Source: a virus. From it: DNA of 64,000 nt. Below are positions 995-50,944 of this stretch, piece after piece. Each line of letters begins with the position of its first letter. Positions within the stretch are counted from its first letter, which is position 1. Both the position numbers and the translations under genes were made by a program. Below the pieces are notes generated by a model, which was not told the DNA's origin, did not search any database, and saw only the letters and a list, made by a program, of their open reading frames with translations. The stretch spans positions 62,001-126,000 of the IMG/VR virus record IMGVR_UViG_3300009158_000031, one strand, 5' to 3'.

Positions 995-1300
995 ATGAAT
1001 ATCATTCCAACATTTGATGGATTTATTAACGAAGGAAAGATTTCCATCGGAAAAATGAATTTTTTTGTACGAGTTTTTAACGATGCAAAAGGACTATACG
1101 TACAATTTATACCGGATGGCAAGACTTTAGATAAATTTTCTAAGAATGACATGGTAGAAAATATAAAAGATAAACTAGATTCAGCAATGCCTCAATTTGC
1201 AAGTGCTCTTTGGTTCGCAATTGACAATCAAGCCACAGGAGTAATTTTCAGATTAGACCCATATAAATTAGAAGAAATAATTACAAAAGCTATTAAATAA
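995..1300 (+). CDS. Small internal-protein candidate with capsid-targeting-like N-terminus
   Basis: 101 aa, function not recognised. It starts MNIIPTFDGFINEGK, the shared motif with I-N-E/G as a putative gp21 processing site. The remainder (FFVRVFNDAKGLYVQFIPDG, then a helix-rich part) has no motif I know. It follows a candidate late promoter and its stop overlaps the next start (TAATG at 1298-1302), so the two genes are translationally coupled. I infer a packaged protein expressed late. Confidence 0.6.
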   Translation: MNIIPTFDGFINEGKISIGKMNFFVRVFNDAKGLYVQFIPDGKTLDKFSKNDMVENIKDKLDSAMPQFASALWFAIDNQATGVIFRLDPYKLEEIITKAIK

Positions 1301-1665
1301 TGAAAACATTCAAAGAATATCTTATTGAAAGTAATACTTTCTCTGAAGAAGAAATCAAAGCACTTAATGAAAATCTTAAGTCTGAATTAACTGAAGCTGA
1401 AGAAGCTAAAATCGATAAAGCTATCAAAGAATTTTGTAGTCAATATCTTGATAAAAACAAGAATATAAAAGAATTTAATGAAGAGCTTACAAATGAAGGT
1501 TTTCTAGGATCTATCCTAGGAGGTCTTACCGGTTTTGCTCTAGGATCTTCGATCGGTAAAATTATTGCAAATGTACTAGGTATTGAGAGAGGCGTAATTT
1601 ACGATTTACTAACAAGTAGACTTGTTGGAGCTGCATTAGGTGCTGCATTAGGAAAACGTGTATGA
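1300..1665 (+). CDS. Glycine-zipper membrane-active protein, possible internal protein
   Basis: 121 aa. The N-terminus MKTFKEYLIES is a shorter variant of the shared capsid-targeting-like motif. An acidic helical stretch of about 65 residues follows, then L-T-N-E-G and a glycine-zipper region of two hydrophobic segments (GSILGGLTGFALGSSIG and VGAALGAALG) ending in KRV. Glycine zippers of this kind insert into membranes. A second possible gp21 cut at NE/G (about residue 67) would release the hydrophobic half. I infer a packaged, possibly membrane-perturbing protein, though a plain structural role is possible. The stop overlaps the next start. Confidence 0.5.
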   Translation: MKTFKEYLIESNTFSEEEIKALNENLKSELTEAEEAKIDKAIKEFCSQYLDKNKNIKEFNEELTNEGFLGSILGGLTGFALGSSIGKIIANVLGIERGVIYDLLTSRLVGAALGAALGKRV

Positions 1666-2279
1666 TAATAGGAATTGATTTCTCAATTAACAGTACAGCC
1701 GTATCTATAAACGAAGGAGGTAACCTCACTCTATTTTCATTCGTTCCAAATTTTCAATCAGGTAAAGCCGCATTCAGAACACATGATGCAATACGAGAAA
1801 TTGTCACGGTTGTTAGCTATAATAAAGAACCTAATACTAAAGATAGTTTAGAAGATCAAAGAATTAAGATTCGTAATGCTAACGAATTATCCGATCAAAT
1901 AATATCTCACATTAGACCTTATTTAGAAGAAGCAGAATTTATCAATATAGAAGGTTTCTCATTTGGATCTAAAGGAAATTCTTTCATCGATCTAATATCA
2001 TACAATACATTTTTAAAAGTAAAACTGCTACAAATTGTAGGAGAGAAGATTTGGGTTATCCCTCCAAAATCTATTAAGAAGCTATATACAGGAAATGGCA
2101 ATGCTTCAAAATGTATGATGGTTAATCGTTTCATGATGGATTCTTCTCCTCTTCGAGATAAAATCACCGAACTTGAATTTATTCAAGAAGGAGAATACGC
2201 TATCCCTAAACCGATTGACGATATTGTTGATGCCGTAGCTCTTTCTCGATTAAACCCGAGTACACAATCCATCATATAA
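1662..2279 (+). CDS. RuvC-like Holliday junction resolvase
   Basis: 205 aa with an RNase H-fold resolvase layout: first acidic residue in IIGIDFSINST (D6), second in FINIEGFSFGSKGN (E about 96), and the C-terminal DDIVDAVALS (about 186-195) that supplies the last acidic pair. Known relatives cut four-way DNA junctions. T4 itself uses endonuclease VII (gp49) to debranch DNA before packaging; a RuvC-type enzyme would replace it here. The start overlaps the end of the preceding gene by 4 bases. I saw no gp49 homologue in the window. Confidence 0.75.
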   Translation: MIIGIDFSINSTAVSINEGGNLTLFSFVPNFQSGKAAFRTHDAIREIVTVVSYNKEPNTKDSLEDQRIKIRNANELSDQIISHIRPYLEEAEFINIEGFSFGSKGNSFIDLISYNTFLKVKLLQIVGEKIWVIPPKSIKKLYTGNGNASKCMMVNRFMMDSSPLRDKITELEFIQEGEYAIPKPIDDIVDAVALSRLNPSTQSII

Positions 2280-2300
2280 GTAGTTAAAGACTGTAATTTC

Positions 2301-4130
2301 ATGAAAGTTAATATTATAACTAGGCTCACTCGACCTGAATACCTTAAAGAGGTTTGGAAATCTATAGAAGATTCTCGAGTAGATAACATCCAGATAAATT
2401 GGCATGTTATCATTGACATATTAGGTAATTTCTCAATATCCTCAGAACTTCTTAGGTTTATTGAGAGTAAAACTACCTCGATCATTATGGAAAAAGGTGA
2501 ACCAAACACTTTTGGATATAGCCTAATCAATAATCTAATTGATACTTTACCCGATGATGAATGGATATACATTCTTGACGATGATAATGCAATACATCCT
2601 GAATTTTTCAAAATCGTACAAGAAAGAGTTAACCTTCCCGGAATCTGGGCATTCAATCAATTAGTCGAAGGAAAAGACTTTACGAAATTACATATCAGAG
2701 AAGCCACTCTCGATAATATGAGATGGCAAGGAGTAGATGTTGGCCAACTACTTATTCATAAAGGAACAATGAATCCACATCGTTTTCATGCTCATTATAG
2801 TGGAGATGGATATTTCATCAATGCCATCAAGGCAGAAAAACCCGAGATATTTCATTTCATTAATGAAACCCTTACTAATTACAATTATTTTCAGAAGAAG
2901 AAGCTCAATAGAAAACTTCCAAGAATTCTATTAATACACGATAAAGATGTTGAGTTAATATCCAACAATCCACCTTATTTTGAATGTGAAGAACTTACAG
3001 TTAAAAGAATAGAGAAATATGATGAATCGGTCGTTTCTGAATTTAATCCAGATTGTATTTTATCGATTGGCGGTGAATGGAAAGATTATCCTGAGCTAGC
3101 TAATTCATCATTTGACTTTAAACAAAGGTGGTTGCATTTCGAAGAGTACTCACCAGAAATAGGAGAAGATGCCTATCAATGTGCAACTGCCTATATTCTA
3201 AATAGACAAACCACTCAACCGCTTTTAAGTATTATTACTCCAATATACAATACTGGAGATAAGCTAAGAAGAACTTATAAATCAATCAAAGAACAAACTT
3301 ACACGAATTGGGAATGGGTTATTGTTGACGATTCGACAGATGAATATACCTCTAATCTTGCAAAAGAAATCGAGAAAGATGATTCGAGAGTAACTGTCTA
3401 TCGAATACTTCCAATTAGTGGTGGAATTATTGGTGAAGCCAAATATCGTGCATTCATGCTTTCTCGAGGAGAAATTCTTATGGAAATGGATCATGATGAT
3501 GAGCTACATCCAGAAGCAAATGAATATATTATTAAGGCTTATAATCGATATCCAGATGCCGGTTTCTATTATTCAGATTGTATAGAGATTAACGAAAAAC
3601 ACGAATCTTTAACTTATGGACCTGATGGAACATGGGCTTTAGGTTATGGTAAATATTATGATTATCATCATAATGGAAGAGATTACAAATCCGTAGATCA
3701 ACCTAATATTAATCCTCTTACTATTCGCCACATTGTGGCTGTTCCAAATCACTTTCGTGCTTGGCGAAGAGATGTTTATCTTTCAGTTGGATCTCATAAT
3801 AGAAGATTATCCATAGCTGATGATTATGAGTTAATCGTTAGAACATTCCTACAAACTCGAATGGTTCACATTCCAAAACCTCTCTACTTCCAATATTATC
3901 ATGGAGGAAATTCTCAAGATGATGGTAATGCAAGAGCCGATATTCAAAGAAGAGTAAGATCTATTTCAGTTTTCTATAACTGGGATATCAGAAACAGATT
4001 CCGTCAATTAGGCGTAGAAGATTGGGCATTCGTTGATTCTAATTGGCCTTGGTACGAATCACCAAAATTCGGTGAGGAAGAGAAGTATGTTAATTATCTT
4101 TTAGATATTAATGAGAATGAAGGAGAATGA
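2301..4130 (+). CDS. Two-domain glycosyltransferase
   Basis: 609 aa. The N-terminal part (about 1-210) starts MKVNIITRLTRPEYL and carries a D-D-D motif in YILDDDNAIHPEF (about 92-104). The second half (about 305-520) is a classical GT-A family 2 domain: LLSIITPIYNTGDKL, the WVIVDDSTDEYT strand, GGIIGEAKYRAF and the metal/nucleotide-sugar motif MEMDHDDEL (about 393-401). Known family members transfer sugars from nucleotide-sugar donors. Its place just upstream of the fibre genes suggests it glycosylates virion fibres; modification of host surface polymer or phage DNA is also possible. Its TGA overlaps the ATG of the minigene in the repeated element that follows. Confidence 0.8.
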   Translation: MKVNIITRLTRPEYLKEVWKSIEDSRVDNIQINWHVIIDILGNFSISSELLRFIESKTTSIIMEKGEPNTFGYSLINNLIDTLPDDEWIYILDDDNAIHPEFFKIVQERVNLPGIWAFNQLVEGKDFTKLHIREATLDNMRWQGVDVGQLLIHKGTMNPHRFHAHYSGDGYFINAIKAEKPEIFHFINETLTNYNYFQKKKLNRKLPRILLIHDKDVELISNNPPYFECEELTVKRIEKYDESVVSEFNPDCILSIGGEWKDYPELANSSFDFKQRWLHFEEYSPEIGEDAYQCATAYILNRQTTQPLLSIITPIYNTGDKLRRTYKSIKEQTYTNWEWVIVDDSTDEYTSNLAKEIEKDDSRVTVYRILPISGGIIGEAKYRAFMLSRGEILMEMDHDDELHPEANEYIIKAYNRYPDAGFYYSDCIEINEKHESLTYGPDGTWALGYGKYYDYHHNGRDYKSVDQPNINPLTIRHIVAVPNHFRAWRRDVYLSVGSHNRRLSIADDYELIVRTFLQTRMVHIPKPLYFQYYHGGNSQDDGNARADIQRRVRSISVFYNWDIRNRFRQLGVEDWAFVDSNWPWYESPKFGEEEKYVNYLLDINENEGE

Positions 4131-5144: not shown

Positions 5145-5148
5145 TTAA

Positions 5149-7415: not shown

Positions 7416-8024
7416 ATGAAACATATACAAAGCTTCGACGATTTCTTAAATGAAGAAGAGAAGAAACCTAGAGTAGGTCATACTGTAAAAAGAGGACATT
7501 ACAAATCAGATCCACCCGATATTGGTCTTTATTCTAAAGGAGGAAGAGACGCAATTAAAGGAACTGGATATGCCAACAAAGAAAAGGCAGAATTTACGGT
7601 AAAAGAGTTAGATAAACTTATGGACAAAGGTGAAAACGTTTGGGCTATGTCAATTGCAACTACTATGGAATCTCGAGCTAAAAAACATCCTCATCAATCA
7701 GATGGAATGCGAGATGCCATGAAGATATTTCGTGAATGGATTGATAAAAATAAGAAAAGTGAAGGTGTTGAAGAAGCTGAAAGTAAAACTCTATTTTCTC
7801 CGGGTAAAGATGATGCAGTAAAAGGAACCGGTTATAAAGATGCAGAAGCGGCAAACAAAACAATCACCATCATTAATAAATTAAATAAAACCGATCATAG
7901 TCACGCAATGGCAATTGCTACGACTATGGAGAATCGAGCTAAAACCCATAAATTTAGCACACCTGATATGAAAGCTGCTGCCAAGATATTTAGAGAATGG
8001 ATTGATAAAAATAGAACTACATAA
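7416..8024 (+). CDS. Internal-protein candidate with tandem duplicated domain
   Basis: 202 aa. It begins MKHIQSFDDFLNEEE, the shared capsid-targeting-like motif. Two copies of a roughly 75-residue unit follow. Copy 1 (about 36-110) contains AIKGTGYANKEKAEFTV and SIATTMESRAKKH with FREWIDK; copy 2 (about 128-200) contains AVKGTGYKDAEAANKTI and AIATTMENRAKTH with FREWIDK. The unit resembles a small helical domain seen in other T4-like phage proteins, of unknown function. An internal head protein is the best guess. The next gene overlaps its stop. Confidence 0.6.
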   Translation: MKHIQSFDDFLNEEEKKPRVGHTVKRGHYKSDPPDIGLYSKGGRDAIKGTGYANKEKAEFTVKELDKLMDKGENVWAMSIATTMESRAKKHPHQSDGMRDAMKIFREWIDKNKKSEGVEEAESKTLFSPGKDDAVKGTGYKDAEAANKTITIINKLNKTDHSHAMAIATTMENRAKTHKFSTPDMKAAAKIFREWIDKNRTT

Positions 8025-14093: not shown

Positions 14094-14354
14094 ATGAAAG
14101 CTATTCCAAAATTTAATGAGTTTAAAACTGTAGGTATGAATGAAGCCCATGATAATGTTGAGCATTACATGTTCTTTAAGAATATCGAAACTATTAAAAT
14201 GATGATCGATGATCTTATGCAAATGAATCCTACTGAAGTAGATATGCTTTTGAATAATGGACACGATTGGGCAGCTGATCATATTGCATCTTCAAAAGAT
14301 GATATTCAAGAAGTTACTGACTTCCTTAAAGGAGAAATAAAACAACAATCATAA
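14094..14354 (+). CDS. Internal-protein candidate with capsid-targeting-like N-terminus
   Basis: 86 aa. Starts MKAIPKFNEFKTVGMNEAHDN, a longer version of the shared motif with M-N-E/A as the likely cut. The mature part would be a mostly helical, acidic protein of about 70 residues (MFFKNIETIKMMIDDLMQM, HDWAADHIASSKDDI). No known domain. I infer packaging in the head. Confidence 0.55.
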   Translation: MKAIPKFNEFKTVGMNEAHDNVEHYMFFKNIETIKMMIDDLMQMNPTEVDMLLNNGHDWAADHIASSKDDIQEVTDFLKGEIKQQS

Positions 14355-14744: not shown

Positions 14745-15770
14745 ATGAAATTACTTAACTTTAATGAGTTCATTACTCATCTAAATGAATCACAAGAACT
14801 TCTATTAGAAGCTTTCAATTCGAGCATTCTACAAAGCATCGTGACTAAACAACGTCAAGGAGGAATTGATAAGAAATTCTTTGATATGCTTTCTAAAAAC
14901 TATGGTATTGCTCCTTCTGAAGTAACTAACCTAGATATTAATATCGTTCAACCTGCAGATGCTGCTAAATATGCGGCTGCAAATCCAAATCAAATCTTAA
15001 TTTATTATTCAACAACTGAAAAGGAAAATCCTTATGTTTCCAAAGATGGTAAATATTACTACGGAACAATTAAAGCAGATGTTCCTTTAGCTATCGTTAA
15101 AGGTAAATTATTCATGGGGTTATCTTATGATCGTTGGGCTTCCAAAGGTGGAAAAGCCGTATATAAATTAGTTCCTGGAACCGATGCTGGTTCTTCATTA
15201 GGACTTGATAACAAACAAGGTAGTGGATATGGTTCTAGTGGAATCAATACCCTTAAGAAAATGGCAGATATTTCTGATATCGTTTATGCCATCAATCCGG
15301 ATACAGTTCCTTCATCTAAACAAACTAGAGATGATCGAAAAGAATCTAAATCTGGTGCTGCTGCTTTTATCGATGATAAACAATTTAAAGCGGACAATCA
15401 AGCTAGATATGAAGCTATTTTAAAAGATCGTGCTTCTAATGAAGATATTGATGCAATAGTTTCTGCCGCAATCGAAGAGCTTACTGCACAAATTAAAGCG
15501 GCCGTAGCTAAAAAGACCATGACCAAATATGGAGATATTCTTGTTGGAACTTCACCTAAAGGAAGAGAAGTTAAAATGAGTGATGCTGGTAATCATATGA
15601 GTAACATTCTTAGAGATTATGGTTATTATGCTCAAGGTAAAAATGATCAAGCTAAATCTGAAGAACGTTGGGGTGAAATGGACAAATACCAACGTGATAG
15701 ATCTGCTCAATATGCTAAATCTATTAAAGACGCTTATAACAAGATTAGTACTTTTAATTACGCTTGGTAA
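14745..15770 (+). CDS. Large internal-protein candidate with capsid-targeting-like N-terminus
   Basis: 341 aa. Begins MKLLNFNEFITHLNESQELLLEA, giving two possible processing points (L-N-E/S and L-L-E/A). The body has a Gly/Ser-rich segment (GSSLGLDNKQGSGYGSSG), then a charged helical domain ending KISTFNYAW. No enzyme motif recognised. Length and placement suggest an ejected or core protein, as T4 internal proteins share a common leader but differ in body. Confidence 0.55.
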   Translation: MKLLNFNEFITHLNESQELLLEAFNSSILQSIVTKQRQGGIDKKFFDMLSKNYGIAPSEVTNLDINIVQPADAAKYAAANPNQILIYYSTTEKENPYVSKDGKYYYGTIKADVPLAIVKGKLFMGLSYDRWASKGGKAVYKLVPGTDAGSSLGLDNKQGSGYGSSGINTLKKMADISDIVYAINPDTVPSSKQTRDDRKESKSGAAAFIDDKQFKADNQARYEAILKDRASNEDIDAIVSAAIEELTAQIKAAVAKKTMTKYGDILVGTSPKGREVKMSDAGNHMSNILRDYGYYAQGKNDQAKSEERWGEMDKYQRDRSAQYAKSIKDAYNKISTFNYAW

Positions 15771-15771
15771 T

Positions 15772-16278
15772 ATGCCATCAACTTCAATTGCACAACAAAG
15801 ACTTATGGGTCAGGCTTACGCTCTCAAAACTGGAGAGCTTAAGTCTTCTGACTTAGATCCTAAATATCGAAAACAAATAGAAGATCTAGCCGCATCAATG
15901 ACAGAAAAAGACCTAAAAGACTTTGCTGAAACATCACATAAAGGCCTACCACAAAAAATAAAAGAAAACTATAAAATGAATAAACACATACCTACGTTCG
16001 AATCTTTCATTAATGAAAACATTGATGTTAAATATTGGGCAGGATATAATGATGATGCTGGAGTTCAAGGACAAAGCAAACATTATTCAGATAAATCAAC
16101 AGATTTTGAGGATACCTTTGAAGATGCTGTTACTGAATGGAACCAAGAAGCTGATGGTGAAAATATGATAAAAGGTGCTCAAATTCAAAAGATCAAGAAA
16201 TTAGCACAAGAATTCTTCAAGAAAGCCGGTTGGATATCTGTTAATGTTGTCCAAGCAATGATTACTCAAGAATCTTAA
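15772..16278 (+). CDS. DUF3008-like domain fused to an internal-protein domain
   Basis: 168 aa from the ATG at 15772. Residues 1-65 (MPSTSIAQQRLMGQAYALK, ASMTEKDLKDFAETSHKGLP) match the small DUF3008-type family as I know it. Then, in the same frame, MNKHIPTFESFINENIDV begins at residue 69 (15976): a complete capsid-targeting-like leader in mid-protein. The linker KIKENYK looks like translated intergenic leader. Either the second half is also made from its own ATG at 15976, or prohead protease cuts the fusion at I-N-E/N. The C-terminal 100 residues are acidic with a helical end (KLAQEFFKKAGWISVNVV). Confidence 0.6.
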   Translation: MPSTSIAQQRLMGQAYALKTGELKSSDLDPKYRKQIEDLAASMTEKDLKDFAETSHKGLPQKIKENYKMNKHIPTFESFINENIDVKYWAGYNDDAGVQGQSKHYSDKSTDFEDTFEDAVTEWNQEADGENMIKGAQIQKIKKLAQEFFKKAGWISVNVVQAMITQES

Positions 16279-16280: not shown

Positions 16281-16517
16281 ATGAAACCTATAAAAGAAAA
16301 TACTTCTGCTGCAACACCTGCTTCTGTAAATGGAATGGGTGCTCCGGCATTGCCAGGTAATCCTGGAACTCAAGCTGGATTCGTCTCACAAAAGACAGGA
16401 TCCGGTGATATACCTTATTCGTTGGTTAAAGGCCAACCGAAGAAAAAGAAGAAATCCTCCTTCAAGAAATTTAAAGACTTCATTAAAGGAAGCGAGGAAG
16501 TTAGAACTGCCTTTTAA
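16281..16517 (+). CDS. Small basic protein carrying a capsid-protein N-arm motif
   Basis: 78 aa. Residues 16-49 match the N-terminal arm of the major capsid protein at 41.7 kb: VNGMGAPALPGNPGTQ here and VNGMGATRFPGNPGTQ there, followed in both by F, then G-S-G-D and a leucine. The C-terminus is strongly basic (KGQPKKKKKSSFKKFKDFIK). It begins 3 bases after the previous stop. I infer a capsid-associated or prohead-core protein that uses the same contact or processing signal as gp23. No enzyme motif. Confidence 0.55.
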   Translation: MKPIKENTSAATPASVNGMGAPALPGNPGTQAGFVSQKTGSGDIPYSLVKGQPKKKKKSSFKKFKDFIKGSEEVRTAF

Positions 16518-34295: not shown

Positions 34296-34691
34296 ATGTA
34301 CGCAATTAAAACCTTTTCAGAATTCGTTAATGAAGGTAAAACTTCAGGATTTAATAGAACTTATACTATGGGTTCTACTTGGTGGGCTTTATGGAAAATT
34401 GAAAACAAAGAAGATTATACTATAAAACAAGATTCTTTTACTAAAACTTTCGAAGTGTATACTAAAGATAAAGAACCTAAATTATCTTTCGTTTTTGATT
34501 ATGGTCGTAATGTAGTTTTCACCAATGATTCACCTAAACAATTTGAGTTAAAAAGAGTTGATCCTAAAGCAAAAGCTAAAGCCGAAGAAACCGATGCCGA
34601 AACTGGTAAAAAAGAAGTTCTTCCTGGTGGAACTCCAAAAGAGGAAGAAGCAGAAGGTGAATTAGAAACCGATAAAACAGAAGAAGAATAA
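34296..34691 (+). CDS. Small internal-protein candidate with acidic tail
   Basis: 131 aa. Begins MYAIKTFSEFVNEGKTSGF, almost the same leader as the preceding gene, with V-N-E/G. A small beta domain follows (YTMGSTWWALWKIENKEDY, PKLSFVFDYGRNVVF), then a highly acidic, Glu-rich tail (KEEEAEGELETDKTEEE). Shared leaders with unrelated bodies are the hallmark of T4 internal proteins. Confidence 0.6.
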   Translation: MYAIKTFSEFVNEGKTSGFNRTYTMGSTWWALWKIENKEDYTIKQDSFTKTFEVYTKDKEPKLSFVFDYGRNVVFTNDSPKQFELKRVDPKAKAKAEETDAETGKKEVLPGGTPKEEEAEGELETDKTEEE

Positions 34692-35628: not shown

Positions 35629-35931
35629 ATGAAAAATTTAATGTCTTTCGACGAATTCGTAGTTAATGAAGCTGGTAAATACGATGCTTCAGGATTTAAT
35701 CCGGCAGCAGAAGCTACTAGCGATGAATTCAATCAAGAATTAACTCCAGGAAAAAAATACAATGTTAAAAAAGGAGAAGAAACTTCTCTTTGCATTTATC
35801 AAGGTAATACTGACGGAGTTTATATCTTCAACCCAGAAGCTAAAGAAGATGGTATAACTACTTCTCCATGTGAATTTACTGAAGCTGAATATGCTGCTGC
35901 ATTTAAAGCTGGTGAAATCGTTGCTGCTTAA
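35629..35931 (+). CDS. Internal-protein candidate with one copy of a repeated beta domain
   Basis: 100 aa. Leader MKNLMSFDEFVVNEAGK. Residues about 45-100 (TPGKKYNVKKGEE, CIYQGNTDGVYIFNPEA, EFTEAEYAAAFKAGEIV) are homologous to two units in the next gene. Preceded by AGATAAATATAAA, another late-promoter-like motif. Confidence 0.6.
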   Translation: MKNLMSFDEFVVNEAGKYDASGFNPAAEATSDEFNQELTPGKKYNVKKGEETSLCIYQGNTDGVYIFNPEAKEDGITTSPCEFTEAEYAAAFKAGEIVAA

Positions 35932-35952: not shown

Positions 35953-36738
35953 ATGAAGAATCTAAAAACATTTTCTGAATTCGTATCAGAAGCCGCTGAA
36001 TTTAATCCAGCTAATACATCTGATATAGATGTTCTATTGCCTGCAATTAAATCTGCATCAGAGCTAATGCCTGGTAAAGAATACGTCATTAAATTAGATG
36101 GTAAAACTCATTCGAATATGATGTATCAAGGAGTAAGTGATGGTAGTTATATCTTCAATTCCGAAGATATGGAAACTGTGCTTAATCTTAAGGATGACCA
36201 AATTAATAGTGCTGTTTCTGATGGTGGTGTTCAACCAGTAAATGAAGCAGTTAAAAGAACTGCAGATCAAGTAAATAAAGATGCAGAAGATCGAATCAAA
36301 AATCAAATTGCTCGTTATTCAGAAATGATGAAATCTAAACCAGAAAAAGCTAATGTTTATAAAGCTCAATTGGATTTAGCTCATGCTAAAATGACGGTTG
36401 TTAATTTGAAGAAAAAGGTTGATGCTCTAAGAGAATCTACCGAATTAGATGAATCTAAACTTTATAAAGGAAAAGAAGTTTTACCTGATTATATTGATCC
36501 ACGAAGAGATTTTGGTGCTCCTGTTAAAAACAGTAAAGAGTTAAAAGTTGGTGCTGAATATGTTATATATGAGCCTGGAATGGATAACTGGCAAGCAGAA
36601 AACATTTATCAAGGTTACACTGGTGGAATTCATATATTCAATTCATCTACACAATTTGGTGAAGCGGAACCTCTAGAATTAACTGACAAAGAATTAGAAT
36701 CAGCTATTAAAGATGGCGAAATTATTAAACAAAACTAA
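35953..36738 (+). CDS. Internal-protein candidate with two copies of a repeated beta domain
   Basis: 261 aa. Leader MKNLKTFSEFVSEAAEF (V-S-E/A). Unit 1 (about 37-92: LMPGKEYVIKLDGK, MYQGVSDGSYIFNSE, INSAVSDGGVQ) and unit 2 (about 195-258: LKVGAEYVIYEPG, IYQGYTGGIHIFNSS, LESAIKDGEII) match the unit in the preceding gene. A charged helical linker (NKDAEDRIKNQIARYSEMMK) joins them. Gene and domain duplication produced three copies. Function unknown. Confidence 0.6.
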   Translation: MKNLKTFSEFVSEAAEFNPANTSDIDVLLPAIKSASELMPGKEYVIKLDGKTHSNMMYQGVSDGSYIFNSEDMETVLNLKDDQINSAVSDGGVQPVNEAVKRTADQVNKDAEDRIKNQIARYSEMMKSKPEKANVYKAQLDLAHAKMTVVNLKKKVDALRESTELDESKLYKGKEVLPDYIDPRRDFGAPVKNSKELKVGAEYVIYEPGMDNWQAENIYQGYTGGIHIFNSSTQFGEAEPLELTDKELESAIKDGEIIKQN

Positions 36739-38026: not shown

Positions 38027-39640
38027 ATGGCAGGCTTTGTAAATAGAGAGGAAACCTACGCTGGTAGACCATCCGCATCTTCGAGAAATGTCGTTTCTAA
38101 AGCTCTTAAGTCGTTATCATCTTTCGGGATGATATACGATGATATGGTTCTTAGAAACTCAAAAGCCATAGGTATCAATGAAGACCGTTTCGGTTGGAGA
38201 TTAGATCCAAGAAATGCAGCCGGTGGTGAATATGACGATTATGCTCTATTTGCCAACCTTTCAATGACGGATATTAATCTCCGTAAAAGTATTTCTATTT
38301 TTGACAAATCTTATATTAAAAAGAGAGAGGATCTTAGAAAATTCTCTATTCAAGATGAAATTGAAGAGATTCTCGATACCCTATGTGACGAATGTGTCGT
38401 CTATGACGAAAAAAATTACTTCTGTACACCATTAACTTTTGATGATCAGACACTTGAACCGGAAACACTAGAAGCCGTTAAGTATGCATTAGATACAAAC
38501 TTTAAAAGAGTTTATCAATACTTTGGTTTCAATAACGATATTTCTGCTTGGTCTTATTTTCGTAAATGGTTAATTGATGGATATCTCGCATTTGAGATTA
38601 TCTACAATAAAGAACAAACTAGAATTATCGGTTTCAAAGAACTTGATCCAGTATCTTTAGAACCAGGTCTTGATAAAGAGGGTAAGAAAATTTGGAAACA
38701 ATTTAAAGCTCAACCTGGTAAAGAAAGAGTTATATATGATTCTCAACTAATTTATCTTTCATATGCACATGCCAATACCGTAAGTCGTGTTTCTTACGTA
38801 GAACGTCTTATTCGTGCATTTAACTTGCTTCGTATCATGGAGCATTCAAGAGTTATTTGGGCTACGGTAAATGCCTCATTCAAAACTAAATTTGTAATTC
38901 CGGTTGGTGGTAAATCCAAAACTAGAGCTCGTCAAAGCTTAGGTGTTTTGATGCAAAATTATCGTGAGAATATTGATTTTGATACAGAATCAGGAGAACT
39001 TAAAGTTAACGGTAAACCAATGATGCCTTTCAATAAAGAGTATTGGTTACCATCCGGTGAAGCTGGAGAACCTACTATCGAGAATATTGGTAATGATGGT
39101 CCAGATTTATCAGATACAGATGCTCTTAAATATTTCCGAGAAAAACTAATTAAAGTATCTAAAATTCCTCTTTCTCGTTTTGATATGGAATCACCTCCAT
39201 CATGGGAAATGAATGCTGAAGGTATGACAAGAGATGAAATTAAATTTGGTCGTTTTGTTAATCGTATGCGTTCAGTTTATCAAGAGATTCTTGTTAAACC
39301 ATTATGGATTCAAATGTGTTTAGACTTTCCAGAACTTAAAGAAGATGATGCTTTTAAAGCTCAAATTGGAATTAAGTTTAACAAATATAACATCTTTGAA
39401 GAAATGAAAGAAATTGAAATCCTTCAAAAACGTCTAGATTTTGTTACTTCAATGAAAGATGGTCTTGTTGAACAAGATGCTAATATGAACGAAATCAAGT
39501 ATTTTGCATCAGAATTCTTAATTCAACGTTTCTTAGGTTTATCATCAGATGATATCCGAACTAATAAGAAAATGAAAGAAATTGAAGATGAAGAAAAAAT
39601 TGCTTCTGCTAAGAAAGCTGCTGAAGCAACTGGAATGTAA
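38027..39640 (+). CDS. 20: Portal protein gp20
   Basis: 537 aa (T4 gp20 524). Forms the dodecameric DNA entry/exit ring. T4-type portal features: WSYFRKWLIDGYLAFEIIYN, FKELDPVSLEPG, LIYLSYAHANTVSRVSYVER (wing region), then the clip/stem region ATVNASFKTKFVIPVGGKSK, and EYWLPSGEAGEPTIENIGN, LKYFREKLIKVSKIPLSRFD. The C-terminal crown region is Lys/Glu-rich. Portal, protease and capsid genes are consecutive, as in T4. Confidence 0.92.
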   Translation: MAGFVNREETYAGRPSASSRNVVSKALKSLSSFGMIYDDMVLRNSKAIGINEDRFGWRLDPRNAAGGEYDDYALFANLSMTDINLRKSISIFDKSYIKKREDLRKFSIQDEIEEILDTLCDECVVYDEKNYFCTPLTFDDQTLEPETLEAVKYALDTNFKRVYQYFGFNNDISAWSYFRKWLIDGYLAFEIIYNKEQTRIIGFKELDPVSLEPGLDKEGKKIWKQFKAQPGKERVIYDSQLIYLSYAHANTVSRVSYVERLIRAFNLLRIMEHSRVIWATVNASFKTKFVIPVGGKSKTRARQSLGVLMQNYRENIDFDTESGELKVNGKPMMPFNKEYWLPSGEAGEPTIENIGNDGPDLSDTDALKYFREKLIKVSKIPLSRFDMESPPSWEMNAEGMTRDEIKFGRFVNRMRSVYQEILVKPLWIQMCLDFPELKEDDAFKAQIGIKFNKYNIFEEMKEIEILQKRLDFVTSMKDGLVEQDANMNEIKYFASEFLIQRFLGLSSDDIRTNKKMKEIEDEEKIASAKKAAEATGM

Positions 39641-39681: not shown

Positions 39682-41583
39682 ATGAGTCAAAAGTATTTGC
39701 TCGTATTGGAAAGATCTTCTTCTGAATTGGACATCAAAACAGAAGGTGACAATTACATCCTAGAAGGAATCTTTACAGAAATCGGCGTTAAAAACAAAAA
39801 CAATCGTATTTACGACGAAAAGGAAGTTCTTCCTCACATAGATGAACTTCTTCAAAAAGTAAAAGGAAGTAAACTTTTAGGTGAATTAGATCATCCTAAA
39901 TCTTTTGAAGTTTCTTTAAAAAATGCTTCTCATGTTATTGAAGCTTTAGATTACGACAAAAACACTAAGAAGGTAATGGGAAGAATCCGTTTACTTAATA
40001 CTAGTGCTGGAAAAGAAGCAAAGGCTCTGGTTGATGCTGGTATTCCTTTACACATTTCTAGTCGTGCTGCTGGAGTGGTTGAAAGTAATGGTCACGTTAA
40101 AATCAAAAAAATGTTTACTTACGATTTAGTTGCAGATCCTGGATTTGCTAATGCTGAATTATCAAGAGTAAATGAAGCATTTGGATTTGAAATGGATGAT
40201 ACATTAGGTCTTTACGAAATGCCTTATAGTGCTAAATTAGCCGAGTCTTTCGAAGATCACGAAAAAATTGATGAAAACAAACAAACTCAAAACATAAACA
40301 AATCTTCAAAAATGAATAATACAACAGAGAACATATCAGTTGAAGATTTTAACGAATATACAAAAATCGTTAAAAACGAAATTGAAAATCTTAAAAAACA
40401 AATCGCTGAAAGTAACACTGATTCTGTAACTGAAAGTACTGAATCATTAGTTAAGTACACTGAAACTATTGCCAAACGAGTAAATCAAATCCAAGAAAAT
40501 TTAGGATCTTTAAAAGAGAACTTCGATCATTTGATATCTCACAATGATTACATCGTAGAAAACCTTGAAAAGGTTAAAGATTACGCTGAAATGGTTGGCG
40601 AAAAATCAAATCAAGGAATTAACTACTCAGAAAAACTTGCTGAATCGGTTGACCACTTAATTGAATATACTAAAATGGTTGCTGAAAAAGCAGATAGTGG
40701 AATTTCTTACACTGAAAGAATTGCTGAATCTGTTGATTCTTCGATCGAATATCAAAATCATGTTGCTAAAGAAGTTAATGAGCGTTTTGCTTATCAAACT
40801 TACATCAATGAACAAGTTGACAATATCATTTCACATACCGATTATATCGTTGAAGGTTGTGATTCAATTATTAAGTACAGTGAGTACCTAAAAGAGAATC
40901 AAGCAAGCTTAACCGGTTATATGGATTATGTTGTTAAAGGTCTTAACGAAGGTACTTCTAATAACGATCCATCCGATAATAACAAATCTGAAAATGCAAA
41001 CGAAGATGATACTAAAGTAAATGAAAATGCTGAAGCTATCAATTCAACTGAAAGTGCTGATGATTTTGAAAATGAAATTAACTCTAGAGTTGATGCTATT
41101 TTAGAATCTGCTAAATCCCAAAAAGATGAAGAGAAAAAATCTAAAATGCATTTCTTTAATTTCTTAGCTGAATCTAAAAGAAACGAATTTGAATCTTTAA
41201 CTGCTGAAGTTCAAGAAAAAATTGTTGATCTTTTCGAAAATACTAAATGGTACGGATCAATTGATGCTAATAACATCTGGGAATCTGCTTTCACTAAACC
41301 AGTTGCTAAAAATGATTGGTTAGCTAATATGCCAAATCGTTATAACGAAGCTTGGAATTCTTTAAACGAATCTCAAAAGAATGCTATTAAAGCTCAAGCA
41401 TCAGTAAGAGTTCTTAGTACACAATATCAAATCGATTCATTTTGGTCTTCAAGAGATTTAAGAGTTTCTAAAGTAGAATCAACTGAACCGGTTGCTCCTA
41501 TTAACGAATCTTCTAAGTATGAAACTCCTCAAGATTATATGGATACTGTTGCTGCTGAATTAAAACGTAGATTCAAAAGATAA
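39682..41583 (+). CDS. 21: Prohead protease gp21 fused to scaffold (gp22-like) protein
   Basis: 633 aa; T4 gp21 is about 212 aa and the scaffold gp22 is a separate gene. Residues 1-205 are the protease: ILEGIFTEIGVKNKNNRIY, KLLGELDHPKSF (catalytic His 71) and IPLHISSRAAGVV (catalytic Ser about 126-127), DLVADPGF. Residues about 210-440 are a heptad-rich coil with imperfect 20-25 residue repeats around Y-x-E/D-x-I/V-A/E (YAEMVGEK, YTKMVAEK, YTERIAES), followed by an acidic linker and a folded C-terminus. An in-frame ATG at 40312 (codon 211) sits in an A-rich start-like context, so a separate scaffold may also be made. Confidence 0.85.
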   Translation: MSQKYLLVLERSSSELDIKTEGDNYILEGIFTEIGVKNKNNRIYDEKEVLPHIDELLQKVKGSKLLGELDHPKSFEVSLKNASHVIEALDYDKNTKKVMGRIRLLNTSAGKEAKALVDAGIPLHISSRAAGVVESNGHVKIKKMFTYDLVADPGFANAELSRVNEAFGFEMDDTLGLYEMPYSAKLAESFEDHEKIDENKQTQNINKSSKMNNTTENISVEDFNEYTKIVKNEIENLKKQIAESNTDSVTESTESLVKYTETIAKRVNQIQENLGSLKENFDHLISHNDYIVENLEKVKDYAEMVGEKSNQGINYSEKLAESVDHLIEYTKMVAEKADSGISYTERIAESVDSSIEYQNHVAKEVNERFAYQTYINEQVDNIISHTDYIVEGCDSIIKYSEYLKENQASLTGYMDYVVKGLNEGTSNNDPSDNNKSENANEDDTKVNENAEAINSTESADDFENEINSRVDAILESAKSQKDEEKKSKMHFFNFLAESKRNEFESLTAEVQEKIVDLFENTKWYGSIDANNIWESAFTKPVAKNDWLANMPNRYNEAWNSLNESQKNAIKAQASVRVLSTQYQIDSFWSSRDLRVSKVESTEPVAPINESSKYETPQDYMDTVAAELKRRFKR

Positions 41584-41691: not shown

Positions 41692-43302
41692 ATGTACTTA
41701 ATTAACGAAAGTGAAATTTTTTCAAAATGGGCTCCAATTATCGAGTCTAATACTGGAATCACTGAGCGTGCTAGAGTTGAGTGGATGTCAAAATATTGCC
41801 ATAACCACGAATTATATGAGAACAACTCATATGCACAACTAGGCGCTGTGAACGGTATGGGTGCTACTCGTTTCCCTGGAAACCCTGGTACTCAAGATGC
41901 TTTTGCTACATCCACTTCTGGATCTGGTGATAAAGCTCACACATTGCTACCTCTTGCTATGCAAGTTGCAGCTCAAACAATCGGATTGGATTTAGTTCCA
42001 GTCGTGCCAATGCCTGGTCCAATGGGTGTATTAACTTACTTGGATTTCGTATATGCTGGTGGTAAAACTGCTGGTACTGGTGCTGATGTTCCTTTAATGG
42101 TTAAATTAGACTACGGTTCTAACACTATCCCTTCATTTACTGTAGGTGGTTCTGGTGCTTCTGGTGGTGCTACTTTCTACATGGTAGGATCTTCTCGTTT
42201 GGATGGTAATCCAATCTTACGTGTTGCTGGAACTTTAACTGGTTCTAACACAATCAAAGATTGTTTAACTAACATCACAATCGGTGGTGCTTCTGCTGGA
42301 ACTGTTACTAACTATTCTATCGAATTAGTTAAAGCTTTAGAAGATCACATCACTGGATTCTCTGGTAATGCTCTTGCTAACAACGATTACACTGGATTTG
42401 ATATTAACGATCCATATTCTCGTAACGACGGTGAAAGTACTACAGATAACGTAATGAACTTAAGTCTATTCAACAAATCAGTTGAAGCTAAGACTTTCCA
42501 AGTTGCTGCTGCTGTTACTCGTGAGCAAGTTCAAGACTTGAAACAATTTGGTATTGATGCAGTTTCTCAAGTAGAAGCAGTTCTTATCAATGAGTTAACT
42601 CAATCAATTAACAAGAACATCCTTGGACGTATCTTCGCTTTAGGAGAAAGAAACCACGAATACGTAATCCGTACTCAAGGTCAAAACTTCTTCTTGAACT
42701 TAGGTGCTACTGCCCTTTTAGTTTCTAACTCTGCGTCAGCAACTAACTTCGGTTCATTTATCCAATCAACTACTTTACGTGGTGCTACAATGGCTGCTAC
42801 TGAAAACGTTAACTCTGCTTCAGAAAACATGCATACTCGTCAACGTAAAATTATGTCTAAAGTATTAGCTATCGCTAACTTAATCGCTATTAGAGGTCGT
42901 CGTGGACCAGCTACTTTCGTAGTTACTAACGGTCAAGTTTGTTCAGCTTTACAAGACGTTGCTGGTTTCGTACCTGCTCCAATGGCTAACACAATTAACC
43001 AAATGAGTGGTTCACTTTATCCTATCGGTACTTTAGCTGGTATGGCAGTGTACAACGATCCTAACATGAACTGGGCAGATACTCGTTTCTGCGTAGGTCG
43101 TAAAGGTGACGGTAACTCTCCAGGATTAGTATTCATGCCTTATTTAATGGCTGAAAGCGTTCAAACTATCGCTGAAGGTACTATGGCTCCTAAAGTTGCG
43201 GTTAAATCTCGTTATGCTTTAGTTGAAGCTGGTTTCCACCCAGAAACTATGTACTTAACTTCAGGTGTATCTTTAAGTGCTACATTCGGTTCTTTAGTAT
43301 AA
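41692..43302 (+). CDS. 23: Major capsid protein gp23
   Basis: 536 aa (T4 gp23 521). HK97-fold shell protein. N-terminal arm MYLINESEIFSKWAPIIE, then VNGMGATRFPGNPGTQ (shared with the 78-aa protein at 16.3 kb), LPLAMQVAAQTIGLDLVPVV, MPGPMGVLTYLDFVYAGG, VTREQVQDLKQFGIDAVSQ, and the C-terminal RYALVEAGFHPETMYL typical of gp23. T4 gp23 is trimmed by gp21 near residue 65; an equivalent cut would fall shortly before or inside the arm motif. Codons look tuned toward GCT/GGT/AAC compared with neighbours, and the gene is followed by a strong terminator: both fit very high late expression. Confidence 0.93.
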   Translation: MYLINESEIFSKWAPIIESNTGITERARVEWMSKYCHNHELYENNSYAQLGAVNGMGATRFPGNPGTQDAFATSTSGSGDKAHTLLPLAMQVAAQTIGLDLVPVVPMPGPMGVLTYLDFVYAGGKTAGTGADVPLMVKLDYGSNTIPSFTVGGSGASGGATFYMVGSSRLDGNPILRVAGTLTGSNTIKDCLTNITIGGASAGTVTNYSIELVKALEDHITGFSGNALANNDYTGFDINDPYSRNDGESTTDNVMNLSLFNKSVEAKTFQVAAAVTREQVQDLKQFGIDAVSQVEAVLINELTQSINKNILGRIFALGERNHEYVIRTQGQNFFLNLGATALLVSNSASATNFGSFIQSTTLRGATMAATENVNSASENMHTRQRKIMSKVLAIANLIAIRGRRGPATFVVTNGQVCSALQDVAGFVPAPMANTINQMSGSLYPIGTLAGMAVYNDPNMNWADTRFCVGRKGDGNSPGLVFMPYLMAESVQTIAEGTMAPKVAVKSRYALVEAGFHPETMYLTSGVSLSATFGSLV

Positions 43303-46646: not shown

Positions 46647-47134
46647 TGGAAATATTTAGACAAAATCTAGGTAAACGTCCAACGAAGTTCGGTATCGTTC
46701 TCGATCGATTAAAACCTAGATATCAAAAAATATTGAAGAAGAATCCCATCATTCGTAATTATTCTACGGATGATAGGCTTCTTAAATGTATCTTCAAAAT
46801 AGAAGATCGATTAATACAAGTATCACATCTAAAAAGAGTTTTTATCGAACCTAAAAGTGGAGAAATATCTTCATTTAAAATCATCAGGGAATCATATCAT
46901 CAATTTGATTGGAATTGTACTTTTTGCAATAAACCTATCAAATCTCGTATAGATAATTATGAACCAGGAAACTTTACTTGCATGAAATGCGAGAATACAT
47001 ATATTAAAGGAACTCGAAAAATTCCAAGAAGAATTATCGAGGAATCTTTGAGATTCACAGAACATGTGAAAACCTTAATGAAAGAAGATCAAAAGAAAAT
47101 TATAAAATATATCAAGAAAAATGATGAATCTTAA
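46646..47134 (+). CDS. Zinc-ribbon protein, unknown function
   Basis: 162 aa. A zinc ribbon is visible: NCTFCNKPIKSR (C-x2-C, about 92-95) and FTCMKCENTYIKG (C-x2-C, about 112-115). The N-terminal part is basic (FRQNLGKRPTKFGIVLDRLK). It shares a stop/start base with the previous gene and overlaps the next. Nucleic-acid binding is likely; role unknown. Confidence 0.6.
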   Translation: MEIFRQNLGKRPTKFGIVLDRLKPRYQKILKKNPIIRNYSTDDRLLKCIFKIEDRLIQVSHLKRVFIEPKSGEISSFKIIRESYHQFDWNCTFCNKPIKSRIDNYEPGNFTCMKCENTYIKGTRKIPRRIIEESLRFTEHVKTLMKEDQKKIIKYIKKNDES

Positions 47135-48626
47135 ATACTTCAGTGATTTTGTTAACGAAGCAAAAACCACTGACGCAAAAACTGTTAAAAATCCGAGAGT
47201 TAAATTAGTACTTCTAACAAATGCTAGTAAAGAATCTCATACAGTTCCTACCTTTGCAGCCGAATGTAAAAAAATGGGTGCTGAATTTATCGTTATTGAT
47301 ATTAGTACAGCAATGATTGCCGAAACCAAAGATGGTAATTTTCTAATCAGTGATAAAGAAAATCCCAAAGGTCTTAAAATCAATGCTGATAATACCGCAA
47401 TTCTTACTCGTCGTGGAGTTGTTAGAAATACTTATACAAAATCTCTAGTTGAAAAACTTCAAGATAATAACTTCTTTGTGGTTAATACTCTTGAAGCTAT
47501 TATGGCTTGCGAAAACAAATATGTTACTACTAAAATCCTTAAAGAAGCTGGAATTCCAGTTCCTAAAACTGCAATCGTTGATGGAGAAGATTCTATTGAT
47601 AGAGCGGTTAAAGATATTGGTGGTAAATTTCCAGTAGTATGTAAGATACTTTCCGGATCTCAAGGAATTGGAGTTTCTATCGTTGATTCTCTTGCTTCTC
47701 TTAAATCAGTTCTACAAACCATTTGGAAAGTGGATCCTTCAGTTGAAATCTTGATTCAAGAGAAAATTGAATCTGAATATGATTTAAGAATACACGTTTT
47801 GACGAGAAAATTCAACTCGCCAACACCAGAAGATACAGATTCAGTACTTCTTGGTTATATGAGAAGAAATCGTGTTAAAAAAGACTTCCGTACCAATTAC
47901 TCATTAGGAGGAACTGTTGAAAAAACTAAAGTAACTCCAGAACAAGAAAAAATTGCTATCGAATCAGCTAAGGCGGTTGGTTGCAATTGGTGTGGTGTGG
48001 ATATTATTGTAGATAAGAAAACTGGAAAAAATTACGTACTTGAAGTTAATGCTTCTCCCGGAACTACCGGATTAAAGAAAGCAACTGGAGTTAACGTGGT
48101 TAAAGATATCGTTCAATTCTTAATGGATAAAACCAATTGGATTCGTTCTAGAAAACGTGTTGGATTCCGTGAAGTTATTACAATTCCTAATATTGGAGAT
48201 ATGGTTGCTAAATTTGATACCGGTAATGGATCTCTTTCATGCACAATCACTTATGATAAATTAGATGTAAATGAGAAAGAGAAGATTGTTAAATGGACAC
48301 TTGGTGGAAGAGATTTTGAATCTAAATTTGTAGGATTCACTGAAACTGAAGTAGGTGATACTATCGAGAAACGTCCTGTTATCGAAATGGATATTCAATT
48401 TGCTGGTAAAGTTTATAAGAAAGTTCAAGTTGCATTAGATGATCGCTCAACCAAGAGTACTAAATTCCTTGTGAATCGTAAATTCATGGAGAGAATTGGT
48501 TGTTCCGTTGATCCAATGAGAACCTTCATCGTATCCTCATTCCCAGTAGCTTATCATGGTGGAGAAGCGAAGAAAGAGCCACATGCCGGAATTATTTTCG
48601 AATGGGATAAAAAGAAAACTAAATAA
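47124..48626 (+). CDS. RimK-like ATP-grasp ligase fused to retropepsin-like (RimB-type) domain, capsid-targeting-like leader
   Basis: About 500 aa; start at 47124 (MNLKYFSDFVNEAKTT) or one codon earlier. Leader V-N-E/A suggests packaging and trimming. Residues about 25-330 are a RimK-type ATP-grasp: VKLVLLTNASKESH, ENKYVTTKILKEAGIPVPKT, FPVVCKILSGSQGIGVSIV, ILIQEKIESEYDLRIHV, NWCGVDIIVDKK and VLEVNASPGTTGLKKATG (Mg-binding E/N). Residues about 345-480 match the retropepsin-like family once called ATP-dependent zinc protease: MVAKFDTGNGSLSCTI (D-T-G) and KSTKFLVNRKFMERIG. In bacteria RimK adds and RimB trims glutamates on ribosomal protein S6. Here both are one polypeptide. Confidence 0.75.
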   Translation: MNLKYFSDFVNEAKTTDAKTVKNPRVKLVLLTNASKESHTVPTFAAECKKMGAEFIVIDISTAMIAETKDGNFLISDKENPKGLKINADNTAILTRRGVVRNTYTKSLVEKLQDNNFFVVNTLEAIMACENKYVTTKILKEAGIPVPKTAIVDGEDSIDRAVKDIGGKFPVVCKILSGSQGIGVSIVDSLASLKSVLQTIWKVDPSVEILIQEKIESEYDLRIHVLTRKFNSPTPEDTDSVLLGYMRRNRVKKDFRTNYSLGGTVEKTKVTPEQEKIAIESAKAVGCNWCGVDIIVDKKTGKNYVLEVNASPGTTGLKKATGVNVVKDIVQFLMDKTNWIRSRKRVGFREVITIPNIGDMVAKFDTGNGSLSCTITYDKLDVNEKEKIVKWTLGGRDFESKFVGFTETEVGDTIEKRPVIEMDIQFAGKVYKKVQVALDDRSTKSTKFLVNRKFMERIGCSVDPMRTFIVSSFPVAYHGGEAKKEPHAGIIFEWDKKKTK

Positions 48627-49084: not shown

Positions 49085-49108
49085 TTCAATAAACTTAATT
49101 TTTTGTTT

Positions 49109-49303: not shown

Positions 49304-49326
49304 TTATAACCAATTAATATAAACAT

Positions 49327-49521: not shown

Positions 49522-49559
49522 TTTGTCAATCATATAATTAAAACAATTCAAATCTTAAT

Positions 49560-50510: not shown

Positions 50511-50519
50511 ATCACTAGA

Positions 50520-50527
50520 TATATAAA
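50520..50527 (+). promoter_or_regulatory. Candidate late promoter -10 (AGATATATAAAG)
   Basis: TATATAAA 18 bases before the ATG at 50546, between an early or middle gene (gp44) and an internal-protein candidate. Confidence 0.45.
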
Positions 50528-50545
50528 GTAATAAAACATCAGAAT

Positions 50546-50944
50546 ATGAAACATATACAAAATTTTGAGGAATTCGTTAACGAATCGATCATAAACGAAG
50601 GTAAATTCACTGACGTTTGGCCAACAATGCCTTACGGAGATTGGAAATCTGAATATGACATTCCAAATAGCATTCAAAAAGAGCTATACCTGGAACTTCA
50701 ATCTAAATTAGGTTCTAAGTCAGTAAAGGTAAAAGAAGACATTGAAGACCGAGCAAAATCTCCAGTATTTAATGAATTTATTACGATGCCAGAATGGAAT
50801 ATGTTTTATAATTGGACTAATCGTTCTGAATCTACTACCGTTGCTGCTTTTGAATTAAAAAATGGAGAAATTGCAGTTGCCGTATATCAAACGTATTCAA
50901 GGAGCGATCCAAAAACCACACAAATGTGGACTATTACTAAATAA
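50546..50944 (+). CDS. Internal-protein candidate with doubled cleavage motif
   Basis: 132 aa. Begins MKHIQNFEEFVNESIINEGK: V-N-E/S and I-N-E/G in tandem. The mature part (FTDVWPTMPYGDWKSEYD, EFITMPEWNMFYNWTNRS, VAAFELKNGEIAVAVYQTY) is a small alpha/beta domain, not recognised. Late promoter motif upstream; structured 3' RNA and terminator downstream. Confidence 0.6.
   Translation: MKHIQNFEEFVNESIINEGKFTDVWPTMPYGDWKSEYDIPNSIQKELYLELQSKLGSKSVKVKEDIEDRAKSPVFNEFITMPEWNMFYNWTNRSESTTVAAFELKNGEIAVAVYQTYSRSDPKTTQMWTITK

Follow-up and report, generated by a model that had tools for sequence, protein, structure and literature searches.

The DNA analyzed here, 64,000 nucleotides of a 254,393-bp IMG/VR virus record (IMGVR_UViG_3300009158_000031, bases 62001-126000; hereafter the window), raises the question of why many otherwise unrelated proteins of one phage should begin with the same short N-terminal leader. 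The leader, which mostly ends in N-E, is found on the leader genes of the window that are collected in Table 1 (genes are named here by their first base); a simple gene-calling script places 79 of the 80 window genes on the + strand. Our analyses indicate that the leader is very probably a cleavable capsid-targeting (prohead) tag of the phage T4 type. By analogy with T4, and with distinctly less confidence, we consider it fairly probable that most of the cargo behind the tag is ejected.

The original prediction named twelve window genes with such a leader, and its gene coordinates are correct. All 12 proteins begin with a leader of the M-x4-[FY]-x-[DE]-F-[LIV]-N-E type, of which only seven fit the literal pattern. 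Of its further cases, 1300 holds in a relaxed form and 15976 is real and in frame, while 34708 is disqualified since its YSDFILGPP lacks the E. The leader at 15976 lies within the open reading frame (ORF) 15619-16278, in which a DUF3008 domain (PF11450, E 1.5e-10) runs in frame into leader and cargo body; this may be a fusion for the protease to split, or else a gene with an internal start at 15976. Adjoining leader gene 14094, the protein encoded at 14370-14726 starts MSQDLNEG, perhaps a degenerate tag.

The placement of the leader is far from random. The strict form, [FY].[ED]F[ILV].E, occurs eight times within the first 15 residues of the window proteins and nowhere else in them (80 genes, 20,046 aa), while per-protein shuffling gave a mean of 0.006 strict matches and a maximum of 1 in 1000 rounds. 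A six-frame scan of the window returned nine strict matches, eight right after + strand gene starts and one on the minus strand. The full-genome search that the prediction had called for showed the set to be larger than could be seen in the window: over the whole record the ATG-anchored strict pattern matched 19 times forward and 2 times in reverse, with no match to the reversed control on either strand. The 19 forward matches represent 17 in-frame genes, one gene being counted twice and one match lying out of frame. A broad pattern matched 53 times forward and 21 times in reverse, its reversed version 8 and 22 times. Expectation-maximization (EM) motif discovery, which presupposed no motif, found [FYL][EKD][ED]F[LIV]NE in 144 N-termini of the record (the window plus 40 kb elsewhere, in stretches chosen for containing matches), with a log-likelihood ratio of 288 against 126 for internal segments. 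In its relaxed form the leader is present on 30 genes of these same stretches, 10 inside the window and 20 outside, a count that leaves out the variants 14094, 14745, 15976 and 35629. Ten of the 30 cluster at 133.2-137.4 kb of the record, and 15 stand in tandem arrays with another leader gene within 60 bp behind.

Leader anatomy was determined using 287 distinct leader proteins gathered from 192 loci, three of them from T4, and residues were counted on one representative for each non-T4 body cluster (n = 142). The consensus is M-K-[NH]-[IL]-[KPQ]-[TS]-[FY]-[ED]-E-F-[LIV]-N-E, followed by S, A or G. The length is 13 residues in 210 of the 287 proteins and ranges from 9 to 17, although it is bounded by the search itself; T4-type tags have about 10-19 residues. 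With the final Glu as column 0, columns -6, -3, -2 and 0 were selection criteria, and the EM run, which made no use of them, recovers them in the record's own N-termini. Conservation extends to columns that were not selected: N at -1 (104 of 142), K at -11 (86 of 136), and D or E at -5 (83 of 142) and at -4 (100 of 142). Directly behind the predicted cut, S, A or G occupies +1 in 100 of 142 against a background of 0.19, and the information content, still 1.17 bits at +1, is down to 0.24 at +2 and at the null level by +6. Conservation that ends one residue past the predicted cut is the look that a cleavable tag would be expected to have. Away from N-termini, the strict motif occurs 25 times in the 570,743 aa of the 192-locus set. 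The 489 leader genes among the 2374 called in these loci do not represent a rate, since many loci were picked around matches and loci overlap.

The residues of the leader coincide with those that matter in T4. Both ipII and ipIII start MKTYQEFIAEA in the T4 record, and a review of Black's work describes the first 10 residues of IPIII as enough for incorporation, residues 4 and 7 as the most important ones for targeting, residues 8 and 10 as those for processing, and such a tag as a possible general route by which T4-like phages load proteins (PMC9026906). IPIII residues 4, 7, 8 and 10 are Y, F, I and E, which correspond to leader columns -6, -3, -2 and 0. The likeness to T4 IPI, IPII, IPIII and Alt thus consists of a short N-terminal tag with aromatics at -6 and -3, a hydrophobic residue at -2 and Glu at the cut, of a small residue behind the cut (in T4 for ipII and ipIII), and of a portal, Gp23 and S77 protease of T4 type within the same genome. 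In the window protease (39682), the His of GELDHP (GELNHP in T4) and the Ser of ISSR (VSSR in T4) align with T4 gp21. We take these two to be the catalytic residues. The idea of a T4-type targeting and cleavage leader, put forward in the original prediction, is therefore supported by most sequence tests, by the T4 residues and by the three head genes.

The differences from T4 are of number and cargo. The strict DNA pattern finds three places in T4 (ipII, ipIII and 61.1, control 0), against the 21 of this record and 35 in its relative G005; the leader has 10 residues in T4 and mostly 13 here; and the bodies behind it are without similarity to the T4 leader proteins at E 1e-4, the ipII, ipIII and 61.1 bodies being singletons in our clustering. 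Of 14 leader or leader-like proteins scanned together, 34008 alone matches, weakly, the 'internal head protein' family phrog_2667 (E 0.0098).

On the T4 model, the tag, probably a short helix with its aromatics at -6 and -3, would bind the scaffold core while the prohead is being assembled and so draw in the cargo, which would then be enclosed. The S77 protease would then cut behind [LIV]-x-E to give a mature protein that usually has Ser, Ala or Gly as its first residue. As DNA fills the head the freed cargo would be ready to exit alongside it into the next host, again as modelled on T4. A single tag would in this way suffice for dozens of proteins with no other relation to each other, often encoded in tandem arrays of small genes. 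The sequences themselves show the shared leader, its sharp end, its extent across the genome and the clade, and the presence of a matching protease and head genes. From these we infer core binding, packaging, cleavage and presence in the virion; ejection is the least supported step, and it is with less support that ejected cargo may be thought to act as early host-takeover or counter-defence proteins.

The cargo itself is diverse. Single linkage at E 1e-4 sorts the 287 leader proteins into 145 body clusters, 142 of them non-T4 and 105 singletons; the figure of 145 is not exact, since remote relatives may split, and the largest cluster, with 45 distinct proteins, merges several families. Domain scans covered 142 of the 145 representatives, with 61.1 included and ipII, ipIII and a 35-aa ORF left out. 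Pfam gave 30 families at E 0.001 or better, each in one protein, and the 25 listed include RimK, pentapeptide and leucine-rich repeats, PNK3P, cupin, Acb1 and cytidylyltransferase-like. At least 112 of the 142 therefore have no Pfam match at this level, and most leader proteins are without a recognised enzyme domain. PHROGs returned 27 families, of which the majority of the 25 listed have no stated function, and a library of defence proteins matched six families (best E 1.8e-6). The 87 NCBIfam families were not used, many of the 25 listed being repeat-protein or ATP-grasp matches from single members.

One recognisable cargo protein is the RimK-like ligase 47124 (RimK E 2.1e-34). Its C-terminal part resembles RimB and zinc proteases (Zn_protease E 6.5e-6, just under the Pfam cut-off) and matches PDB entry 9g59, ATP-dependent zinc protease-like, at E 0.00022. 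Cargo of the RimK-like kind is present in 26 viral loci; L330 aside, in all 25 that were read the leader, variable in sequence and length, terminates in [ILV]NEA, several of these 25 contigs being near-identical to one another. In favour of the tag, Yersinia phage YerA41 has a homologue of 47124 that is annotated 'structural protein', and the particle proteome of YerA41 by liquid chromatography and tandem mass spectrometry is reported to comprise 63 proteins (PMC7354516). Leader-like starts were also present on RimK-like homologues of Pelagibacter phage Mosig (MQVQPFKNYLEEA) and Methylophilales phage Melnitz (TQKFSQFITEE, with a TTG start), and none on that of cyanophage S-RIM8. Among other loci, L195:17605-18162 of G002, a close relative whose capsid protein is 94% identical, encodes a tagged Acb1/2H phosphoesterase (E 1.4e-7, above the Pfam cut-off) with two HxT motifs, a candidate for a pre-packed protein against the cyclic-oligonucleotide-based antiphage signalling system (CBASS). 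L202:5588 is a polynucleotide 3' phosphatase (E 2.4e-21), and L198:8842 of the record itself has a KTSC domain (E 1.6e-13).

Two further tagged proteins are side observations. L129:1539-2006 is ADP-ribosyltransferase-like (ART-PolyVal E 0.0011, below the cut-off), which would be a T4 Alt-like function, and the tagged L184:1183-1569 looks ADP-ribosyltransferase-like with no Pfam match. For 319, a weak match to the phage protein kinase family phrog_15752 (E 0.0038) was obtained; there was no PDB match up to E 5, and the related viral loci found were two 100%-identical copies. Its single-sequence AlphaFold model (mean predicted local distance difference test, pLDDT, 37) was unusable; the kinase idea, which comes from one weak profile match, was set aside.

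The family of 35629 allowed the leader to be followed through an alignment of 15 sequences (the window protein and 14 relatives, one non-member having been dropped). With a mean column identity of 48%, F7 and E14 of the leader are invariant and F10 nearly so. In 8 of the 15, a second [IV]xE/A (the slash marks the predicted cut) lies a few residues behind the tag, before the same A-[TNS]-D-A segment, and in L025 the first cut motif sits at that segment. As judged from these sequences, the cut motif is kept at the start of the predicted mature part. An AlphaFold model of 35629 (mean pLDDT 70) has a leader helix at residues 7-15 with modest confidence, a low-confidence linker and a small beta-rich domain; Foldseek found no match at E 0.001 or better in viral and PDB libraries.

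The spread of the leader was assessed among phages with related capsid proteins and beyond. The best-ranked capsid relatives among phage records are the uncultured 462-kb phage LR756500 (54% identity) and Prevotella Lak phages (39-40%), with Tenacibaculum pT24 and PTm1, Sphingomonas PAU and Chryseobacterium MA9V ranking lower at approximately 33%. Strict counts were obtained for 20 records as raw matches over control, with both strands summed and some genes doubly counted via neighbouring ATGs. They are G001 18/0, G002 15/1, G003 18/0, G004 23/1, G005 35/0 (all 35 on one strand), G006 6/0, G007 18/0, G008 26/0, G009 4/0, G010 20/2, G011 14/0, G012 15/2, G013 10/0, LR756500 21/2 and PAU 1/0. 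G001 and G011 repeat the window sequence, G007 and G008 share sites, and G010 has many sites in common with LR756500, so that these counts are not independent. A further 12 records were searched with a slightly wider spacing. Three phages of 636-735 kb also show an excess (LR756501 15/2, LR756502 14/2, LR756504 8/1) and RB69 gives 4/0; the others have 0 to 2 matches (P-SSM2 1/2, S-PM2 1/2, KVP40 2/0, HTVC008M 0/0, Aeromonas 65 0/1, phiKZ 1/0, RM378 1/0, MaF61 1/0).

The broad pattern, counted on both strands of 18 phage records, is too noisy for single genomes. It is above control in Lak-B5 (83/51) and in excess in KVP40 (23/6); the remaining counts are T4 19/16, PAU 25/11, PTm1 19/15, pT24 31/31, MA9V-1 21/14, P-SSM2 22/24, S-PM2 15/14, HTVC008M 9/14, RB69 21/14, Aeromonas 65 15/18, phiKZ 25/18, RM378 9/12, MaF61 13/14, LR756501 144/53, LR756502 117/76 and LR756504 126/78.

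PAU appears to have a leader of its own. MK[ST][LI]xxL[YF]E begins many head-region genes (19 matches in the PAU record, control 0) and was found in none of nine other records searched, this record included. Of the 14 pattern-fitting genes read, five have [KR]LNE behind the leader. The annotated capsid maturation protease of PAU aligns with T4 gp21, and two of its leader-bearing proteins, gp142 and gp154, are labelled internal capsid proteins in its record. PAU thus resembles the present phage in a repeated N-terminal leader with a Glu motif at its end on many head-region genes, and differs in the leader residues.

Other systems for loading proteins into heads are less similar. Phages of the phiKZ/SPN3US type are described as packing many proteins into a giant head and as cutting some propeptides, several of more than 100 residues, with a prohead protease of family S80 (PMC5694885). 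The present phage would likewise carry many proteins in a giant head, as predicted from its genes alone, with 13-residue leaders and an S77 protease instead. In polyvalent and MuF-fused effectors, enzymes are predicted to be carried in the head and injected (PMC9503650); there the enzymes form one polypeptide with a head protein or with further domains, whereas the leader proteins are separate, mostly small genes (median 149.5 aa), and no MuF or portal domain is among the 25 Pfam families listed of the 30 found.

Several results weigh against reading the leader as a cleavable prohead tag. Although 10 of the 12 genes have A, G or S behind the predicted cut, as originally predicted for most, the residue there is E at 7416 and H at 31264, so that it is not always small. 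The strict pattern shows no excess in PTm1 (0/0), pT24 (0/0), MA9V-1 (0/1) and Lak-B5 (1/2), which have related capsid proteins; the PAU leader pattern is likewise absent from these four, and EM found no clear repeated leader in 20-48 kb stretches of them. Nor did EM find a clear leader motif in the head regions of LR756500, LR756501, LR756502 and LR756504, and since their whole records show a strict excess, tagged genes may lie elsewhere in them or be few there. The RimK-like homologue of YerA41 has no such leader. Virion proteomics of the present clade was not found. A T4-type late promoter, TATAAATA, is upstream of none of the 30 leader genes and of 2 of the 109 others, so that a shared late promoter as a sign of co-expression was rejected; TATAAA, upstream of 11 of the 30 and 30 of the 109, gives no support for co-expression either. 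Finally, F(-3) is encoded by TTC in 23 of 29 of the record's own leaders, against 0.42 in window genes, a bias that the other conserved residues do not share.

This codon bias indicates that part of the leader sharing may be at the DNA level and, together with the tandem arrays, it is what would be expected if the shared 5' end were a DNA-level element, such as a recombination site or translation enhancer, spread by duplication and having no role in the protein. We consider this highly improbable, since N (21 AAT, 5 AAC), E (24 GAA, 6 GAG) and F(-6) (13 TTT, 8 TTC) use synonymous codons near the window usage, and distant relatives retain the key residues while the remaining leader varies. Protein-level selection would explain most of the sharing, with perhaps some recent copying. 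The leader could also be a signal that sorts proteins to another place, such as a replication compartment, a vesicle, the membrane or the tail, as some phiKZ proteins are described as being sorted to a nucleus-like compartment (PMC13282480). This too seems improbable to us: the leader has the residues of T4 capsid targeting and, where its conservation stops, a cut site of the T4 type, which speaks against it, as do the finding of the T4 internal proteins and of four places in RB69 (counted by pattern only) by the same kind of DNA pattern, and the cut-like motif at the end of PAU's different leader.

A different question is whether a working and cleaved tag delivers effectors at all, because most of the cargo could be head-assembly or core proteins that are consumed or retained and not ejected. 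T4 IPIII is described as influencing head assembly (PMC9026906), members of the 35629 family are encoded 5-7 kb ahead of the capsid gene, both in the window and in the 14 aligned relatives, and the large share of leader proteins with no Pfam match would fit such a role. The cargo set, by contrast, differs much between phages, as its many singleton clusters attest, and some of its domains (RimK/RimB-like, Acb1-like and polynucleotide 3' phosphatase) do not obviously serve to build a head. We therefore regard this alternative as unlikely, and prefer a cleavable prohead tag whose cargo would, with less confidence, be for the most part ejected.

The window also encodes a small copy of the capsid arm (16281). 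It matches the stretch of its own Gp23 directly behind ELYE (VNGMGA..LPGNPGTQ..F.....GSGD). Its front part is short (MKPIKE), and a relative in L220 has a fuller leader, FNQFIEE/N, ahead of the same arm. Among 50,697 phage records one matches 16281, LR756500 in two places, of which the one listed is inside the capsid gene. In T4, gp61.1 (L217:367-531) consists of the leader MKTFKEFIKE, a copy of the mature Gp23 arm and a Lys/Glu-rich sequence, and aligns with gp23 across FLTE/A at residue 65; the gp23 propeptide length is given as 65 (PMC9026906). Matches to 61.1 were found in 1386 records, an upper bound because weak matches may include gp23 itself. The two proteins share the order of leader, mature Gp23 N-arm copy and Lys-rich tail, and differ in that the copied arm is in each case from the phage's own capsid protein. 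A small capsid-arm copy thus appears to be present in T4 and in this phage, independently or by common descent, and is a possible decoy or stabiliser of the capsid lattice.

Around these genes lies a T4-like head module (Table 1). ELYE, the predicted propeptide cut of the capsid protein, is present in all 29 distinct capsid-protein N-termini obtained by an NGMG search of 80 loci, with N or S next, and the start of 16281 matches at this position. Scaffold candidates are the C-terminal part of the protease, which holds a leader-like FFNFLAE/S at base 41152, a repetitive 861-aa protein (44061-46646) with FLINE at its end, and 43418. The 63 other window proteins, a set that includes 16281 in place of 16330, by contrast matched 90 families, and the 25 listed include DNA polymerase, helicases, ribonucleotide reductase, clamp loader and portal. 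Ribosomal protein S21, described in other freshwater Bacteroidetes phages (PMC9723584), was found in none of the eight records searched.

Table 1 Leader genes, capsid-arm copy and head genes of the window; a slash marks the predicted cut
Feature	Position	Strand	Length	Remarks
Leader protein MKFYKYHEFLNE/A	319..957	+	212 aa	Start within ORF 304; literal pattern fit
Leader protein MNIIPTFDGFINE/G	995..1300	+	101 aa	Near variant FDGFINE
Weaker leader MKTFKEYLIE/S	1300..1665	+	121 aa	Relaxed form fits
Leader protein MKHIQSFDDFLNE/E	7416..8024	+	202 aa	Literal fit; one of 6 distinct leader proteins in its body cluster
Leader variant with insertion MKAIPKFNEFKTVGMNE/A	14094..14354	+	86 aa	FNEFKTVGMNE
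Leader variant with insertion MKLLNFNEFITHLNE/S	14745..15770	+	341 aa	FNEFITHLNE
Leader MNKHIPTFESFINE/N	15976..16278	+		FESFINE; in frame within ORF 15619-16278, behind DUF3008 domain
Small Gp23-arm copy	16281..16517	+	78 aa	Lys-rich stretch behind arm; aligned with own Gp23
Leader protein MSIKSYDEFVNE/H	31264..32016	+	250 aa	Literal fit
Leader protein MSTIKTFSEFINE/A	34008..34286	+	92 aa	Literal fit
Leader protein MYAIKTFSEFVNE/G	34296..34691	+	131 aa	Literal fit
Leader protein MKNLMSFDEFVVNE/A	35629..35931	+	100 aa	FDEFVVNE, one extra residue
Leader protein MKNLKTFSEFVSE/A	35953..36738	+	261 aa	Near variant FSEFVSE
T4-type portal (gp20 family)	38027..39640	+		Portal_T4 E 5e-71
S77 prohead protease	39682..41583	+	633 aa	Includes long C-terminal part; Peptidase_S77 E 6.3e-13; phrog_207
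Gp23-type major capsid protein	41692..43302	+		Gp23 E 4.1e-36; candidate propeptide cut ELYE/N
Leader MNLKYFSDFVNE/A on RimK-like ATP-grasp ligase	47124..48626	+	500 aa	Literal fit
Leader protein MKHIQNFEEFVNE/S	50546..50944	+	132 aa	Literal fit

Tags of this kind are already described in T4 and related phages (PMC9026906). Our search of the open-access literature found no description of a genome with dozens of tagged genes, nor of tag dialects that differ between lineages. To learn which virion proteins enter a cell, one normally has to culture the phage and analyse its virion proteome. If the proposed function of the tag is correct, one motif would list the likely virion cargo of uncultured giant phages, approximately 140 mostly nameless sequence clusters would become candidates for host takeover or counter-defence in the first minute of infection, and the reach of one tag-and-protease pair, as well as the joint change of tag and protease between lineages, would become testable.

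More tentatively, and as a whole possible rather than probable, the giant phages of this group may keep a large, fast-changing bank of cargo, with 30 or more kinds of protein per virion, entry by one tag, swapping of tandem cassettes, and an aim at the host's first defences and ribosomes (Acb1-like and RimK/RimB-like proteins). In the same picture, lineage-specific dialects of the tag would be matched to each phage's own core and protease, and the tagged capsid-arm copy would be an unrecognised head component shared with T4. If this is true, a lineage-specific tag code would allow the virion cargo to be read from the phage genome.

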